Under the pieces are notes generated by a model. That model had not been told where the DNA came from and did not search any database. It worked only from the letters and a program-made list of their open reading frames with translations. From assembly GCF_018881715.1 (NCBI RefSeq), contig NZ_JACVPW010000001.1, positions 893,337 to 957,336 of the forward strand: a stretch of DNA of 64,000 bases. The letters are read 5' to 3'. The DNA comes from Polynucleobacter parvulilacunae (GTDB lineage: Bacteria > Pseudomonadota > Gammaproteobacteria > Burkholderiales > Burkholderiaceae). The position numbers and the translations under genes were made by a program. Each line of letters opens with the position of its first letter. Within the stretch, counting starts at the first letter, position 1. Below are positions 34,086 through 39,702 of this stretch, one piece after another.

Positions 34086-37000
34086 ATGAAAATCAAGATT
34101 CTGTTTCGCAGCCTACTAAGTTATGGAGTTACTTATATATTCCTCGGTTTCCCATCATCCTCGATGGCAGCAGGTAGCTGTGATAACTACACCCCCGGTA
34201 ACAATGCTACGGTCACTTGTACTGGTTCTGCAAGTACGTCTGTAGGCGTCATTTCAACTCAATCTGATACAACCGTGGGCAACAGCGTTACTGTAAATAT
34301 TAATTCCGGCACTTCATTAATTATTAATGGTTCTACAGTGGGTATTGGCAGTGCAGCTACCGTAGTGAATGATGGAAATTTAAATACCAGCGCTTTCTAT
34401 TACGGTTACGGAATTTCATCGGGTGCAAATGGAAGATCGCAGGCTGGCGGCAGCAACATTACCAATAATGGCACCATTTACACTGGCGGTACAAATGCAT
34501 CTGGTATTTACATCAGCGCCACTAATGCTGGATCTACCGCGAACACAATTACGAATACTGGCTCCATAACAACAGCGGGTGCCGGTGCAAATGGTATTCA
34601 AGTGGTTAATGGTGGCGCGATTACCGCCATTAATAACTCAGGAGTGATTTCTGCTCAAGGGGCTAATTCAAATGGAATTCAAGTAACGGGCGCAGCAAAT
34701 ATCACTAACTCAGGAACCATATGCCCATCAACGGTTGTTGGCAGCAATTGCGCTGCAAGTGGCGCGGGTAGTGGCAACGGCATACAAATTGATAACAATG
34801 CCAATGCCAATCGCACTACCGTTACCAATGCATCATCCGGCTTAATAGGTGCTCCTACAACAGCAAACTATGCAATCTACAGCGCTCAACAACCTGGTGT
34901 GGATGTATATAACTACGGAAAAATTATCGCTGCAAGTGCTGCCGCTACTGCGATTAATTTTGCTGGCTCGACAACGGGCGGATCTAATAACACTGTTACT
35001 TTATATGGCGGCTCAACGTTGTTGGGCGGCATTAGTTTTAATAAGGGCAGTACACAAGAAGCCCTGAACTTTAACGGGCTTTCAAATGCAAATTTCAGTA
35101 ATGCCGTAACTGGTCTGAATATTATCAATGCCACTAACGGCTCTAATGTGGTGATGAATAGCGCTACAGGATATGAATTAGTAGCTGGAAAGATTGCGGT
35201 TGATGGTACTTCTAGTTTGGCTATCTCTGGAGTGATTCAGGATCAAACTAGCCCAAGCGCTGCTACTTCGAGTATTGAGAAAAGTGGAGCTGGAACTTTA
35301 GTGTTATCTGGTGCCAATACTTACACGGGTGGCACAGCGTTGAATGCAGGAGCTATTGCAGTTGCCAATAATGCCGCCTTAGGAACTGGCGCTTTAACGA
35401 TGGCAGGCGGCACAAGCTTGCAAGCAAACTCTTCAGTAAGTCTTGCTAATAACGTTGCTTTATCTGGCGCGAGCACTATCAACACCAATGGAAACAATTT
35501 GGGTCTGTCTGGGAATATGACTGGATCCGGTGGATTTACTAAAACAGGTGCTGGCACATTAACCCTCTCCGGTACAAATGCCTATAGCGGTGGAACCACC
35601 GTCTCAGCAGGTACATTGGCCGGTAATACCTCAAGCATTCAGGGCAATGTAATTAATAACGCAATAGTGAATTTCAATCAGACAACGAACGGGACCTATG
35701 CCGGCGTAATGAGCGGATCAGGTAGCCTGGTTAAAGATGGTTCTGGCACCGTAACAATTTCTAAGACCAATACTTATACTGGGGATACAAACATTAACGC
35801 AGGTGGCCTGATATTAACTGGATCGACCACATCAAATACCTCGATAGCTGCTGGTGCTAACTTGCAAGGTAGCGGTGTCATAAATGGCAACGTAAATAAC
35901 TCGGGAACGATTGCGCCATCTTTTAATGGGTCTGCAACTAATTTGACCGTGAACGGTAACTATATTGGTAATGGCGGAAACTTTGTTGGCAGCGTGTATG
36001 CTCCTGCCTCTGCTCCTGTATCCGATACTTTGACCGTAACTGGTAATACCACTGGCTCTACTGGCATTACCGTAACGGATAAGGGTGGTCTTGGCAATCG
36101 TACGGTTGGCAATGGTATACCTGTGATTATTGTGAATGGCGCGTCTACATCCAATGCATTTGCATTAACTCAGCGTGTTGCATCTGGTGCTTATGAATAC
36201 AAGCTTTATAAAGGTGGCCCATCAGGCGTTGGCAATTCTTGGTACCTGTCCACTCAAGCTCCCACTCCAGCATCTACCCCGGGATCCTCTAGCGGTTCCT
36301 CAGCTGCAACTTCTGTAGCACCTCCTGCACCAGTTCCCACTCCTGCTGCTGGAGAGCGTATTGAGGTTGCGGTCTATCCAGCTGTACCTTCATTGGTGCA
36401 GTTGTATGCACAGACAGCAGTTGACACATTAGATCAACGTCGTGGCGATCTCAATTTGGTTGATCCGACAAATGGCGCTAAGAAAAGTTCAAATGATTGG
36501 GCGCGCATTATTGGTAAGACTGGAACTTCTACTCCATCCTCTGTAGATAACGGCCCGAAGATGAATTTCAATGCCTATGCTTTGCAGTTGGGTGTAGACG
36601 TGTATCAGAATGAAGAGCAGGGTGGCTCTAGATCTTATGTCGGCCCTTACGTCACTATCGGTAGCGCTAATGCCAATACTTCCAGTCAGACAGGCAGTAT
36701 CTCTACCGGTAGTATTAATGGTATGCAGGCTTACTCTTTAGGTTTGTATGGCACCCATTTTGCTGCTAACGGCCTATATGTAGATGCTCTTGCTCAAGGT
36801 ACGCGCTATCTCAATGCGGGAGCCGGCTCTGTTCAGGGCGCACAGCTACGCACCCAAGGCACTGGCTTTACAGGCTCGATTGAAGGCGGCGGACGCTGGA
36901 ATATAGATAAGTTCTTAATCTCCCCACAAGCACAAATTGTCTATGACGCCATTGGCATGAATAATGCAACAGATGCATATGGTCAAGTGAACTTTAACAA

Positions 37001-37322
37001 GAGTGAAATGACTCGTGGCCGTTTAGGTTTGTTGGCCGGACATAAAGATGTGATTGGTAGCACTCCAATCTTTGCGTATTTGCGTGCTAGCTATTGGAGC
37101 ATCTTTAATGCAGGCACAAGTACGACTATGGCTTCACTCTATGGTGTTAACCCAATCACTTTCCAGTCACAAGCAAACTCACGCTGGATGACTGTGGATG
37201 CTGAATTAAATGCCCGCATCACAAAAGATACCAACCTATTCATGAACTTAGCTGTTGATAACTCTTTGGTAGGAACATACCAAGCTTACTCTGGACGAAT
37301 TGGCTTACAAACTCGTTTCTAA
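34086..37322 (+). CDS. Autotransporter with PATR beta-helix passenger
   Basis: A 1078-residue type V secretion protein. Signal peptide about residues 1-29. The passenger is rich in Asn, Gly, Ser and Thr and is expected to fold as a beta-helix; it contains three passenger-associated transport repeats of the form GAGTLxLSGxNxYxGGT (about residues 397, 487 and 548). A Pro/Ser/Ala-rich linker occupies about 723-757. The C-terminal 280 residues are the outer-membrane barrel and end in Phe (GLQTRF), as barrel proteins do. No protease triad or self-cleavage motif is evident, so a surface adhesin or aggregation factor is more likely than an enzyme. Low sequence complexity of the passenger limits the inference. 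Confidence 0.9.
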   Translation: MKIKILFRSLLSYGVTYIFLGFPSSSMAAGSCDNYTPGNNATVTCTGSASTSVGVISTQSDTTVGNSVTVNINSGTSLIINGSTVGIGSAATVVNDGNLNTSAFYYGYGISSGANGRSQAGGSNITNNGTIYTGGTNASGIYISATNAGSTANTITNTGSITTAGAGANGIQVVNGGAITAINNSGVISAQGANSNGIQVTGAANITNSGTICPSTVVGSNCAASGAGSGNGIQIDNNANANRTTVTNASSGLIGAPTTANYAIYSAQQPGVDVYNYGKIIAASAAATAINFAGSTTGGSNNTVTLYGGSTLLGGISFNKGSTQEALNFNGLSNANFSNAVTGLNIINATNGSNVVMNSATGYELVAGKIAVDGTSSLAISGVIQDQTSPSAATSSIEKSGAGTLVLSGANTYTGGTALNAGAIAVANNAALGTGALTMAGGTSLQANSSVSLANNVALSGASTINTNGNNLGLSGNMTGSGGFTKTGAGTLTLSGTNAYSGGTTVSAGTLAGNTSSIQGNVINNAIVNFNQTTNGTYAGVMSGSGSLVKDGSGTVTISKTNTYTGDTNINAGGLILTGSTTSNTSIAAGANLQGSGVINGNVNNSGTIAPSFNGSATNLTVNGNYIGNGGNFVGSVYAPASAPVSDTLTVTGNTTGSTGITVTDKGGLGNRTVGNGIPVIIVNGASTSNAFALTQRVASGAYEYKLYKGGPSGVGNSWYLSTQAPTPASTPGSSSGSSAATSVAPPAPVPTPAAGERIEVAVYPAVPSLVQLYAQTAVDTLDQRRGDLNLVDPTNGAKKSSNDWARIIGKTGTSTPSSVDNGPKMNFNAYALQLGVDVYQNEEQGGSRSYVGPYVTIGSANANTSSQTGSISTGSINGMQAYSLGLYGTHFAANGLYVDALAQGTRYLNAGAGSVQGAQLRTQGTGFTGSIEGGGRWNIDKFLISPQAQIVYDAIGMNNATDAYGQVNFNKSEMTRGRLGLLAGHKDVIGSTPIFAYLRASYWSIFNAGTSTTMASLYGVNPITFQSQANSRWMTVDAELNARITKDTNLFMNLAVDNSLVGTYQAYSGRIGLQTRF

Positions 37323-37349
37323 AGCAAGTTTGATTTAAATCTTGCACTA

Positions 37350-37886
37350 TTACTGAGGTACTACGCGACGTGCTTCAGTAAACTTGGCTGCCCAGTAGGG
37401 CGTTGTGATGTAGTCAAGGCGCACGGTTCCGCCTGCGCTTGGTGCATGAACAAATCTACCTTGTCCAACATAGATTCCCGCATGGGAATATTTTTCACCG
37501 GTAGTGTTAAAGAAAACTAGATCACCTGGAGCGGGTGGTTGACCTTCAATGCTCCTACCTTTGGTACTCATCAATTGAATAGTCCGTGGAAGTTTGACCC
37601 CAGCTGCCTTGTTATAGACGTAGACAATCAGTCCGCTGCAATCAAAGCCACCCTTTGGGGTATTGCCACCAAACCGATAGGGGACATCTACTAAACCAAC
37701 GGCTGCAATAGAAATATCTTCAGTACCAACGCTAGTGTCTTGCTTGAATTGAGAGACTCTAGAGGAGGATCCTGATTTGCCGCTGAACGTGCTGCACCCG
37801 CTTAGGATCAGTAAGCTACAAATAAAAATGCCGCACCCCAGAAGAGTGCGGCATGAGAGAGATTGCTTAGAGTGCGTCAGCAGCAT
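37350..37886 (-). CDS. NlpC/P60 family lipoprotein
   Basis: Probable cell-wall endopeptidase on the membrane. I use the ATG at 37886, which overlaps the end of the PhoH gene by 20 nt; another in-frame ATG at 37910 lies deeper in that gene. Residues 1-30 form a lipoprotein signal with LILSGC. The NlpC/P60 triad is present: Cys in GFDCSGLIVY, His in YSHAGIYVG and a third polar residue in FVHAPSAGG. 178 residues, standard for the Spr/MepS type. A terminator-like hairpin is embedded in its signal-peptide codons. Confidence 0.88.
   Translation of the reverse strand: MLLTHSKQSLSCRTLLGCGIFICSLLILSGCSTFSGKSGSSSRVSQFKQDTSVGTEDISIAAVGLVDVPYRFGGNTPKGGFDCSGLIVYVYNKAAGVKLPRTIQLMSTKGRSIEGQPPAPGDLVFFNTTGEKYSHAGIYVGQGRFVHAPSAGGTVRLDYITTPYWAAKFTEARRVVPQ
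37823..37854 (-). terminator. Terminator-like hairpin inside the NlpC/P60 gene
   Basis: On the minus strand ATGCCGCAC (37854-37846) pairs perfectly with GTGCGGCAT (37836-37828), then TTTTTA follows. It lies 13 nt after the PhoH stop codon but inside the signal-peptide coding part of the next gene. It could terminate most PhoH transcripts and make expression of the lipoprotein depend on translation through the stem. Confidence 0.7.
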
Positions 37887-39531
37887 GATCCGCAAGACGT
37901 GAGCGTTCACCGCGAGCTAAAGTCACGTGACCACCATGACGCCAACCCTTGAAGCGATCAACTACATAAGTTAAACCTGAAGACCCCTCGGTTAAATATG
38001 GGGTATCGATCTGAGCGATGTTTCCTAGGCAAATAATTTTGGTTCCAGGGCCCGCGCGGGTAACGAGGGTTTTCATTTGTTTTGGAGTGAGGTTTTGCGC
38101 TTCATCAATGATCACAAACTTGCTGACAAAGGTTCTGCCGCGCATGAAGTTCATGCTCTTTACTTTAATGCGTGAGCGAATCAACTCTTGAGTAGCAGCG
38201 CGACCCCATTCACCACCATCTTCATTACGCTGTAATACCTCTAGGTTATCGTCAAACGCACCCATCCAAGGTTGCATCTTTTCTTCTTCGGTACCTGGGA
38301 GGAAGCCAATATCTTCACCGACTGGCACTGTGGCGCGGGTAATGATGATTTCGTTATAACGCTTGCTGTCCAGAACCTGTTCAAGACCGGCGGCCAATGC
38401 CAGCAAAGTTTTGCCGGTACCAGCTTGTCCCAATAGGGTCACAAAATCAACATCTGGGTTCATGAGCAGATTCATAGCAAAGTTCTGCTCGCGGTTGCGT
38501 GCAGTAACGCTCCAGACATTATTCTTTTGATGGGAGAAGTCTCTAAGTGTTTGCAGGAGGGCAGTTTTGCCATTAATTTCTCTAACCTGTGCATAGAAAG
38601 GTGTGGAGCCATCTGGATTTTCTTGATAGACAAACTGGTTGACCAACATGCTTTGTACGGATGGTCCAGTCACGCGATAAAACATCGTGCCAGATTTGGA
38701 GTCAGCCCAGCTTTCCATATCCTTGCCGTGCTTGGGCCAAAAATCTGCTGGCAATGTCATCACGCCGGCATACATCAAGTCACGATCTTCTAATACTTGG
38801 TCGTTGAAATAATCTTCTGCAGGCAAACCAAGGGCGCGTGCCTTAATACGCATATTGATATCTTTGGATACCAATACCACTTCTTGGCCCTTACGAGTTT
38901 TTTGTAATTCGCTTACTACTGCCAGAATAAGGTTGTCACCTTTGCCTTCAGGTAGACCCTCTGGCAAAGCTTGAGTAGTTAATTTTGTCTGAAAGAATAG
39001 GCGACCCGTCACATCTTGGTTGCCTAGCTTATTGAGTGGAATGCCATCATCTAAAGTACCACTAGTGCCGGCAATCAGCTGATCCAAAGACCTGCTGACT
39101 GTACGGGCGTTACGGGCTACCTCGGTCATACCTTTTTTGTGATTGTCCAACTCTTCTAAAGTGGTCATCGGCAAGTAGAGATCATGCTCAGAGAAGCGGA
39201 ACAGGGAGCTTGGGTCATGCATCAATACGTTTGTATCAAGAACAAACAAGCTTGGAGGACCAGTACGAATAATCCGTTTTGGTTTTGCGGGTGTAGCTGC
39301 TTTATTCTCATTGCGTTCATTACGCTGATGATGAACAGGGCGATGATCTGCTTTAATCTTTTCGAGAGCGACTTCCGCTGCAGATAAATCTTCTTCTGCG
39401 TCGTTCGTCCAATCAACAGCTTCCACTACCACTGGTTTTGCTTGAGCAGGACGTTTCTTTAAGTCGGGAGTATCTTTGCGACTGAGTTTCACTTGATCAG
39501 CAATTTGAGTGGGGATTGGGGGCAGCGGCAT
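37867..39531 (-). CDS. PIN-PhoH fusion protein (PhoH2/YlaK type)
   Basis: 554 residues from ATG 39531, chosen because AGGAG lies 5 nt upstream; an ATG at 39570 lies within the leader terminator region. The PIN domain (about residues 100-260) starts FVLDTNVLMHDP with the first metal-binding Asp. The PhoH ATPase domain has Walker A GQAGTGKTLLALAAG near residue 370 and IIDEAQNLTPKQMK (Walker B). PhoH2 proteins couple a PIN ribonuclease with an ATP-driven RNA helicase. Some are partnered by an antitoxin-like small gene; I see none here. An Arg/Lys/Pro-rich N-terminal extension precedes the PIN domain. Confidence 0.9.
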   Translation of the reverse strand: MPLPPIPTQIADQVKLSRKDTPDLKKRPAQAKPVVVEAVDWTNDAEEDLSAAEVALEKIKADHRPVHHQRNERNENKAATPAKPKRIIRTGPPSLFVLDTNVLMHDPSSLFRFSEHDLYLPMTTLEELDNHKKGMTEVARNARTVSRSLDQLIAGTSGTLDDGIPLNKLGNQDVTGRLFFQTKLTTQALPEGLPEGKGDNLILAVVSELQKTRKGQEVVLVSKDINMRIKARALGLPAEDYFNDQVLEDRDLMYAGVMTLPADFWPKHGKDMESWADSKSGTMFYRVTGPSVQSMLVNQFVYQENPDGSTPFYAQVREINGKTALLQTLRDFSHQKNNVWSVTARNREQNFAMNLLMNPDVDFVTLLGQAGTGKTLLALAAGLEQVLDSKRYNEIIITRATVPVGEDIGFLPGTEEEKMQPWMGAFDDNLEVLQRNEDGGEWGRAATQELIRSRIKVKSMNFMRGRTFVSKFVIIDEAQNLTPKQMKTLVTRAGPGTKIICLGNIAQIDTPYLTEGSSGLTYVVDRFKGWRHGGHVTLARGERSRLADHAADAL

Positions 39532-39702
39532 GGACTCTCCTAAAAGAAAAAACCGCCAAGCGGAGTGCATTGACGGTTTATTACGAAACTAGTTGCAGTG
39601 GTGATGGAAAAACGGAGGGGGTTGCTCCCCGTGCCTGATCTGAGATATTCAGGTTTCTGATTCAAACGGATTGTCAGACTTTCCCGTCGTTTACGGTGCA
39701 TA
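39532..39702 (-). promoter_or_regulatory. phoH leader ending in a terminator next to the ribosome binding site
   Basis: A possible promoter TTGCAA (39736-39731), 16 nt, TAAAGT (39714-39709) on the minus strand gives a leader of about 171 nt. It contains hairpins CCTGA/TCAGG (39634-39653) and GGGG/CCCC (39617-39630). It ends in AAACCGTC/GGCGGTTT (39579-39550, one G-U pair) followed by a long T-run (to 39542) that runs directly into the AGGAG of phoH. It may be an attenuator; it could also simply end the arn-bcp transcript. No known riboswitch class is recognised. Confidence 0.5.
39541..39579 (-). terminator. Intrinsic terminator directly before phoH
   Basis: Minus-strand stem AAACCGTC with GGCGGTTT (8 bp, one G-U), loop of 14 nt, then TTTTCTTTTA. 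Its T-run touches the phoH SD. Good terminator geometry. Confidence 0.7.

Follow-up and report, generated by a model that had tools for sequence, protein, structure and literature searches.

A hairpin at the phoH-nlpC junction

The window analysed here is a 64,000-nt stretch of the genome of Polynucleobacter parvulilacunae (assembly GCF_018881715.1, contig NZ_JACVPW010000001.1, forward-strand positions 893,337-957,336), which its nearest relatives likewise assign to a Polynucleobacter-type genome; the genome also encodes a tmRNA (223.7 bits, above the family cut-off). A minus-strand phoH-like gene is followed in the window by a second gene, here called nlpC, which it overlaps by 20 nt (Table 1) and whose product, judged by the combination of a domain match and a lipobox, is an NlpC/P60 lipoprotein. 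The open frame of nlpC extends back to a GTG at 37910 (ORF 37910-37350, minus strand), and the NLPC_P60 domain occupies residues 76-182. Preceding the domain, within the signal-peptide codons, lies a minus-strand hairpin (37854-37828) with a perfect, G+C-rich stem of 9 bp and a U-tract next to it; the tail after the stem reads TTTTATTTGT, and the U that opens the tract also closes the stem. Counting G-U pairs and the loop edge as well raises the number of pairs from 9 to 12. The original prediction, that a stem and U-tract lie inside the next coding sequence and that the hairpin encodes part of the lipoprotein signal peptide, is borne out in both respects, the nlpC frame being open through the hairpin. 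Its distance of 13 nt needs rewording: the stem begins at the 13th nucleotide past the phoH stop codon, with 12 nt between.

Table 1 Features of the phoH-nlpC junction in window coordinates
Feature	Position	Strand	Details
phoH-like gene, PIN and PhoH domains	37867..39570	-	PhoH E 3e-47, PIN_4 E 4.6e-35
nlpC start region within phoH (phoH residues LADHA)	37882..37896	-	synonymous observed/expected 0.228
NlpC/P60 lipoprotein gene (nlpC), from best-supported ATG	37350..37886	-	NLPC_P60 E 3.1e-30
phoH stop codon	37869-37867	-	
12-nt spacer, phoH stop to stem	37855..37866	-	letters vary, length constant
5′ arm of stem	37846..37854	-	ATGCCGCAC; part of S-C-R-T codons
Loop region	37837..37845	-	TCTTCTGGG; edges able to pair, middle codons free to vary
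3′ arm of stem	37828..37836	-	GTGCGGCAT; codons G-C-G-I
U-tract	37820..37828	-	UUUUUAUUU; codons I-F-I of hydrophobic region
Lipobox LSGC, Cys codon 37796-37794	37794..37805	-	by reading translation

With a G+C-rich stem, a short loop and an adjacent U-tract, the element has the layout of an intrinsic terminator, for which release of the transcript is predicted. The fold exceeds chance expectation: none of 200 dinucleotide shuffles of the 111-nt region folded as well (z -2.8). A scan of the whole window returned nine terminator-like sites, among which the embedded hairpin has the most G-C pairs (7; next best 6), and six Markov shuffles of the window yielded 0-2 sites each, none of which reached 9 bp and 7 G-C pairs. 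The exact stem sequence occurs once in the 2.07-Mb genome, and no Rfam family matched window positions 37200-39700 up to E = 1.

Beyond nlpC lies a plus-strand autotransporter gene (window 34086-37350); 27 nt separate its end from that of nlpC, and the terminator scans of the window list no terminator between the two; transcripts that read through nlpC may run antisense into the autotransporter gene. An autotransporter beta-domain match near nlpC is confined to five relatives (L003, L006, L008, L014, and L027), together with copies of the window and of L003.

The start of nlpC was examined in the 90 distinct loci selected for TGC at +16 and for a minimum of 8 of the 12 pairs, in a numbering that places the ATG at 37886-37884 at -17. 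This ATG is present in all 90 and is the best-supported start, in place of the GTG at 37910; the original prediction was right that the coding sequence begins within phoH. Six of the loci have an in-frame stop at -26, three codons before the ATG, which excludes starts further upstream there, and 58 have no in-frame ATG, GTG, or TTG between +4 and +60, so that in these the frame has to be entered upstream of the stem. Furthermore, synonymous variation in phoH is minimal at the nlpC ATG: within the last 600 nt, the eight lowest 5-codon windows all fall in the final 36 nt, and the next-lowest window beyond them stands at 0.52 of expectation, the dip being partly due to the double coding of the overlap itself. 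No conserved promoter-like dip other than that at the nlpC start was seen in these 600 nt, a search that an unconserved promoter would escape, and an internal promoter in phoH was rejected as a candidate on this ground. Of another 43 distinct junctions from Polynucleobacter, including the hairpin-bearing L054 and L055, 40 have the ATG and L070-L072 do not.

Conservation and double coding within Polynucleobacter

A pattern search allowing up to three mismatches found the hairpin once per genome in 122 of 186 Polynucleobacter genomes, including 100 of the 144 good ones; 64 genomes overall and 44 good ones are without it, and the reversed pattern, used as a control, gave 0 matches in every genome. 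A relative of the protein was located at 77 loci, 76 of which have phoH adjoining, and in the 77 rows made up of those 76 loci and the window the hairpin is present in 62.

Substitutions were mapped on a tree of the flanking phoH and nlpC sequence of 84 distinct loci. These derive from 125 loci, 92 of which were kept by the presence of GCCG at +17 to +20, less two that were too short and six duplicates; the 33 dropped loci lack the motif or, in the case of L088, have a misplaced phoH stop. Two copies of the window (L079 and L080) had been excluded beforehand, and L153 and L171, added later, stand outside the count. In L088, the hairpin is intact and the phoH frame, followed from the start of the match, meets an early stop, possibly through a frameshift or an assembly error.

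At the nine third codon positions in the stem and U-tract, the counts of change were 0, 1, 3, 0, 1, 1, 0, 1, and 0, a total of 7 where the same amino acids would lead one to expect 166.9. No draw out of 200,000 reached so low a value; in this synonymous model the expectation for Cys rests on two codons only. One of the nine positions lies in the selection motif GCCG, which is conserved by construction, and omitting it leaves the picture the same because it contributes no change. By comparison, the mean for third positions is 19.5 changes in phoH and 22.6 in the mature part of nlpC, with 35 and 36 for the two loop codons. The third positions of the U-tract taken separately changed 0, 1, and 0 times, with 14.1, 12.4, and 14.1 expected. 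Thus, the stem has been retained in relatives despite codon drift, a check that the original prediction had itself proposed.

Pairing is preserved as well. In the 90-locus set, 807 of 810 core pair cells are kept, as are 1048 of 1080 when all 12 pairs are considered, the 12th pair being broken in 28 loci. Eight single deviations affect the core; in five of them pairing persists (C>T facing G in four cases, A>G facing T in one), and in three it is lost, two in L153 and one in L054. A register-free search from -40 to +200 placed the stem at the same 12-nt spacing in all 90 stem-bearing distinct loci, with three weak chance matches elsewhere, and the lipobox Cys further on lies at +73 in 72 loci and at +70 in 18. 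L171 has kept the stem and lost the U-tract (TCACCATCAG) and is, as far as its sequence tells, a natural separation of the hairpin from termination. The part of the spacer just before the stem (37855-37861) consists mostly of pyrimidines in the relatives despite its varying letters. On the tree, 89 of the 90 hairpin loci fall into one clade with support of 0.47, and L153 lies outside it on a backbone with support of 0.074, values too low to decide between a single and a multiple origin of the main stem.

The same stretch is held open as coding sequence. Between +3 and +60, the nlpC frame has no stop in any of the 90 loci, whereas the other two frames are stopped in 17 and 54 of them. Pairing geometry, worked out by hand, sets first codon positions against first positions and each third position against a second position of the opposite arm; compensatory changes would therefore alter amino acids, which would account for a sequence that is frozen and does not covary. 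At +28, where the codon varies, most of the residues encoded are hydrophobic, as a signal peptide requires. Because the third positions are frozen, the frame is open in 90 of 90 loci and phoH shows the dip at the nlpC start, the stretch is doubly constrained, as a putative intrinsic terminator and as a signal peptide; comparison of the loci demonstrates the structure, this double constraint, the coding through the stem, and the start of nlpC inside phoH. A possible antiterminator was also considered, as the end of phoH (CGCACTCT) and the start of nlpC (ATGCTGC) resemble the 5′ arm by eye and could pair with the 3′ arm; the variability of phoH positions -4, -10, and -13 (16, 14, and 8 changes) leaves this pairing unsupported, and it was discarded.

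Other arrangements of the junction

Polynucleobacter loci without the main stem display several distinct arrangements. In group B (10 distinct loci), an unrelated terminator lies 13-16 nt past the phoH stop, with the stem GGCGAG, once GGCGGG, and the nlpC frame is open; a TTG follows the stem at +46 or +49 in eight of the ten. L117 carries a further terminator, 10 nt past the phoH stop, and has in-frame starts upstream only. In groups C1 and D, the signal-peptide codons of nlpC form strong hairpins that lack a U-tract. Nine group D loci picked by eye retain 99 of 108 pair cells, against 20-54 of 108 in slid controls, and compensatory changes are present. Representatives of groups A (6), B (4), C1 (5), and D (5) were compared with 28 control segments and 100 synonymous recodings, of which no more than 3 and 13, respectively, matched the strength of the native fold; the same test gave mixed results for C2 and nothing unusual for the IMCC 30228 group and L168.

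Folds were also noted locus by locus. A different strong hairpin without a U-tract, spanning about +31 to +56 past the phoH stop within the nlpC signal-peptide codons and showing compensatory changes, is found in L113, L114, L155, L160, L166, L167, L169, L172, and L178. Five loci (L149, L150, L176, L177, and L179) have a hairpin around CCTGATAG/CTATCAGG in the signal-peptide codons, again without a U-tract, which in L176 begins at about +15. In the IMCC 30228 group (L062, L065, and L067), the nlpC start region CATGCTGC is predicted to pair with the lipobox codons TGCGGCATG, a fold that could hide the nlpC start codon; it did not rise above controls in a local-window test and is absent from the fold of L068.

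From other genera, 10 stretches were fetched among the 290 family genomes with a match. Two loci of the comparison, L078 and L127, are without a phoH match. In nine other-genus loci, the nlpC match begins 369-849 nt past the phoH stop, and in six of these nine an ordinary terminator lies within 200 nt after phoH. Within Polynucleobacter, groups lacking the U-tract or the hairpin altogether indicate that the terminator is not needed everywhere and speak against a universal terminator role, and the hairpins without a U-tract suggest that termination may not be the sole role of such structures.

Termination, read-through and competing explanations

We favour the reading that the hairpin is a conserved, selected terminator of phoH which attenuates nlpC and is perhaps relieved by a phoH ribosome close by, and assign it a probability of roughly 0.6. 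The hairpin would be a genuine intrinsic terminator, with most transcripts finishing at the 3′ end of phoH; full nlpC mRNA would arise by read-through only, production of NlpC would probably depend on RNA polymerase passing the stop signal, and NlpC expression would thus be set lower than that of PhoH. A leading phoH ribosome close behind the RNA polymerase could hinder the stem and raise read-through, as it could reach a stem that begins just 12 nt past the phoH stop, and transcription of nlpC would thereby be coupled to translation of phoH. Termination, read-through, the ribosome effect, regulation, and purpose are what we infer from the comparative data, and the dependence of read-through on phoH translation is plausible by analogy.

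For the main clade, the conserved U-tract argues for termination. A scan that recovered the embedded site in 87 of 90 loci, and flagged 1 of 626 phoH background windows, showed 1 of 85 loci with a terminator-like site in the gap that immediately follows nlpC, so that in most loci the embedded site is the only clear terminator near the gene pair; sites within 500 nt after nlpC (32 of 84 loci) may belong to other genes. The unrelated terminator of group B, at the same place, also supports the attenuator reading, as do the ordinary terminators after phoH in six of the nine other-genus loci. Several observations count against it, among them L171 without the U-tract, L054 and L153 with broken core pairs, the 64 genomes without the hairpin, the groups with no U-tract or nothing unusual, and the sites farther past nlpC in 32 of 84 loci.

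The distances involved can be compared with reporters studied in E. coli. In that study (PMC4824070), a terminator very near a stop codon is almost fully repressed by the ribosome of the upstream gene and is fully active beyond about 30 nt, the curve being sequence-specific, with termination efficiency of about 0.12 at 17 nt in one series and about 0.8 at 18 nt in another. For a terminator 30 bp past a start codon, translation of its own ORF costs only about 10% of the efficiency (PMC4824070). If this E. coli distance rule applies, it is the ribosome on phoH that would promote read-through; ribosomes on nlpC itself would matter little, which counts against part of the original prediction, where a ribosome on the overlap melts the stem. 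The overlap weighs against the coupling part of the attenuator reading by analogy with gene pairs in which, as reported in PMC12548453, a longer overlap gives weaker translational coupling, the overlap here being 20 nt.

A simpler account, possible but in our judgement doubtful, is a plain leaky terminator that ends phoH transcripts and whose constant leak keeps nlpC mRNA at a low, constant level free of ribosome-dependent regulation, the overlap being a by-product of genome compaction. The other genera, with their separate nlpC and ordinary terminators after phoH in six of nine loci, fit this account, and a need for termination alone would account for the conservation. It is opposed, though not decisively, by a spacer that is 12 nt in 90 of 90 loci even though the later part of the signal peptide differs by one codon among loci, and by the position of 12 nt within the range of upstream-ribosome repression in E. 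coli (PMC4824070), which is likewise not decisive. An unlikely alternative makes termination secondary: the hairpin would act after transcription, blocking 3′ exonucleases or serving as a processing site that protects phoH mRNA, or slowing ribosomes at the start of nlpC. The strong hairpins without a U-tract in the same codons of groups C1 and D, with 99 of 108 pair cells kept in the latter, and the bare stem of L171 speak for such a function, whereas the third positions of the main-clade U-tract (a count outside which L171 stands) are as conserved as those of the stem, and a bare hairpin would not need a U-tract.

It is quite improbable that nlpC has its own promoter and a start in or after the hairpin, in which case the terminator would not be truly embedded. 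The loop does contain an in-frame ATG, TTG, or GTG at +28 in 22 of the 90 loci (17 of them with ATG, where a start within the hairpin is possible), 10 more have a start codon only at +55 or +58, and group B has its TTG codons after the stem. This is outweighed by the 58 loci without a start codon from +4 to +60, by the ATG at -17 with its sharp synonymous dip, and by the stop-free nlpC frame in all 90 loci; moreover, a start at +28 leaves no charged residue ahead of the hydrophobic stretch. A DNA-level palindrome, such as a protein-binding site or an uptake signal, is suggested by arms conserved near letter for letter and is very improbable, since the stem has a single genomic copy and the 7-mer GTGCGGC is at chance level in the window (7 against 8.1 expected), two findings that also led us to reject an uptake sequence or repeat, the T-tract is conserved on one side, and five of the eight core deviations, few as they are, keep the RNA pair through G-U.

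Going beyond the attenuator reading, we raise only tentatively a broader proposal: that the phoH-nlpC junction is a sensor of transcription-translation coupling, which the polymerase passes only with a phoH ribosome close behind, and that hairpins of unrelated sequence have been built several times in the genus, with a U-tract (main clade, group B) or without one (C1, D), selection favouring structure in one small set of codons.

Terminators within ORFs are already known, as in BrfA, ArfA, and the pyrBI leader. The pyrBI attenuator of E. coli resembles the proposed arrangement in that an intrinsic terminator is overlapped by a translated frame and relieved by a ribosome close behind the polymerase. 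In pyrBI, the frame belongs to a dedicated leader peptide and UTP governs the pausing, whereas the overlapping frames here are those of two structural genes. A frame running through the terminator or ending just before it is present in all 90 loci, nlpC being open and the phoH stop lying 12 nt before the stem, with translation of both predicted. The frdD/ampC attenuator of E. coli is similar in that the terminator of an upstream operon lowers transcription of the next gene; that terminator is not known to lie within the ampC coding sequence. BrfA of Bacillus subtilis and ArfA of E. coli share with the junction a hairpin or terminator inside the coding sequence, a full-length mRNA that needs read-through, and terminated transcripts with an open frame lacking a stop (PMC6881298 and PMC8012679). 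In those systems, the hairpin lies towards the 3′ end of the ORF, the truncated protein is active and tmRNA exerts control (PMC6881298, PMC8012679), whereas here the terminator, although inside an ORF, lies near its 5′ end, the truncated product would be a partial signal peptide, and the terminator also follows phoH. The tR2 reporters of Li et al. have the same geometry, with terminators a few nucleotides after a stop or about 30 nt after a start (PMC4824070), but are synthetic and in E. coli, whereas the phoH-nlpC junction is natural and conserved. Overlapping, translationally coupled pairs also have the second start codon inside the first gene; the enriched spacings given in PMC12548453 are -4, -1, and -8 nt, in contrast to an overlap of 20 nt with a terminator just after it. 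Among the matches listed from titles and abstracts of the open-access literature, we found no description of the phoH-nlpC junction, nor, among the matches listed from the same literature, of a terminator at the 5′ end of a structural gene directly following the preceding gene.

Collectively, judged by conservation, the junction offers a natural case of one DNA stretch serving as terminator and as coding sequence, retained nearly letter for letter across most of the genus while neighbouring synonymous sites vary. Surveys of intergenic regions, of which PMC8632094 is an example, can miss conserved RNA elements of this kind, which lie in coding sequence. As Polynucleobacter are free-living freshwater bacteria, the junction would also offer a test, outside E. 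coli, of whether ribosomes relieve terminators close to stop codons.
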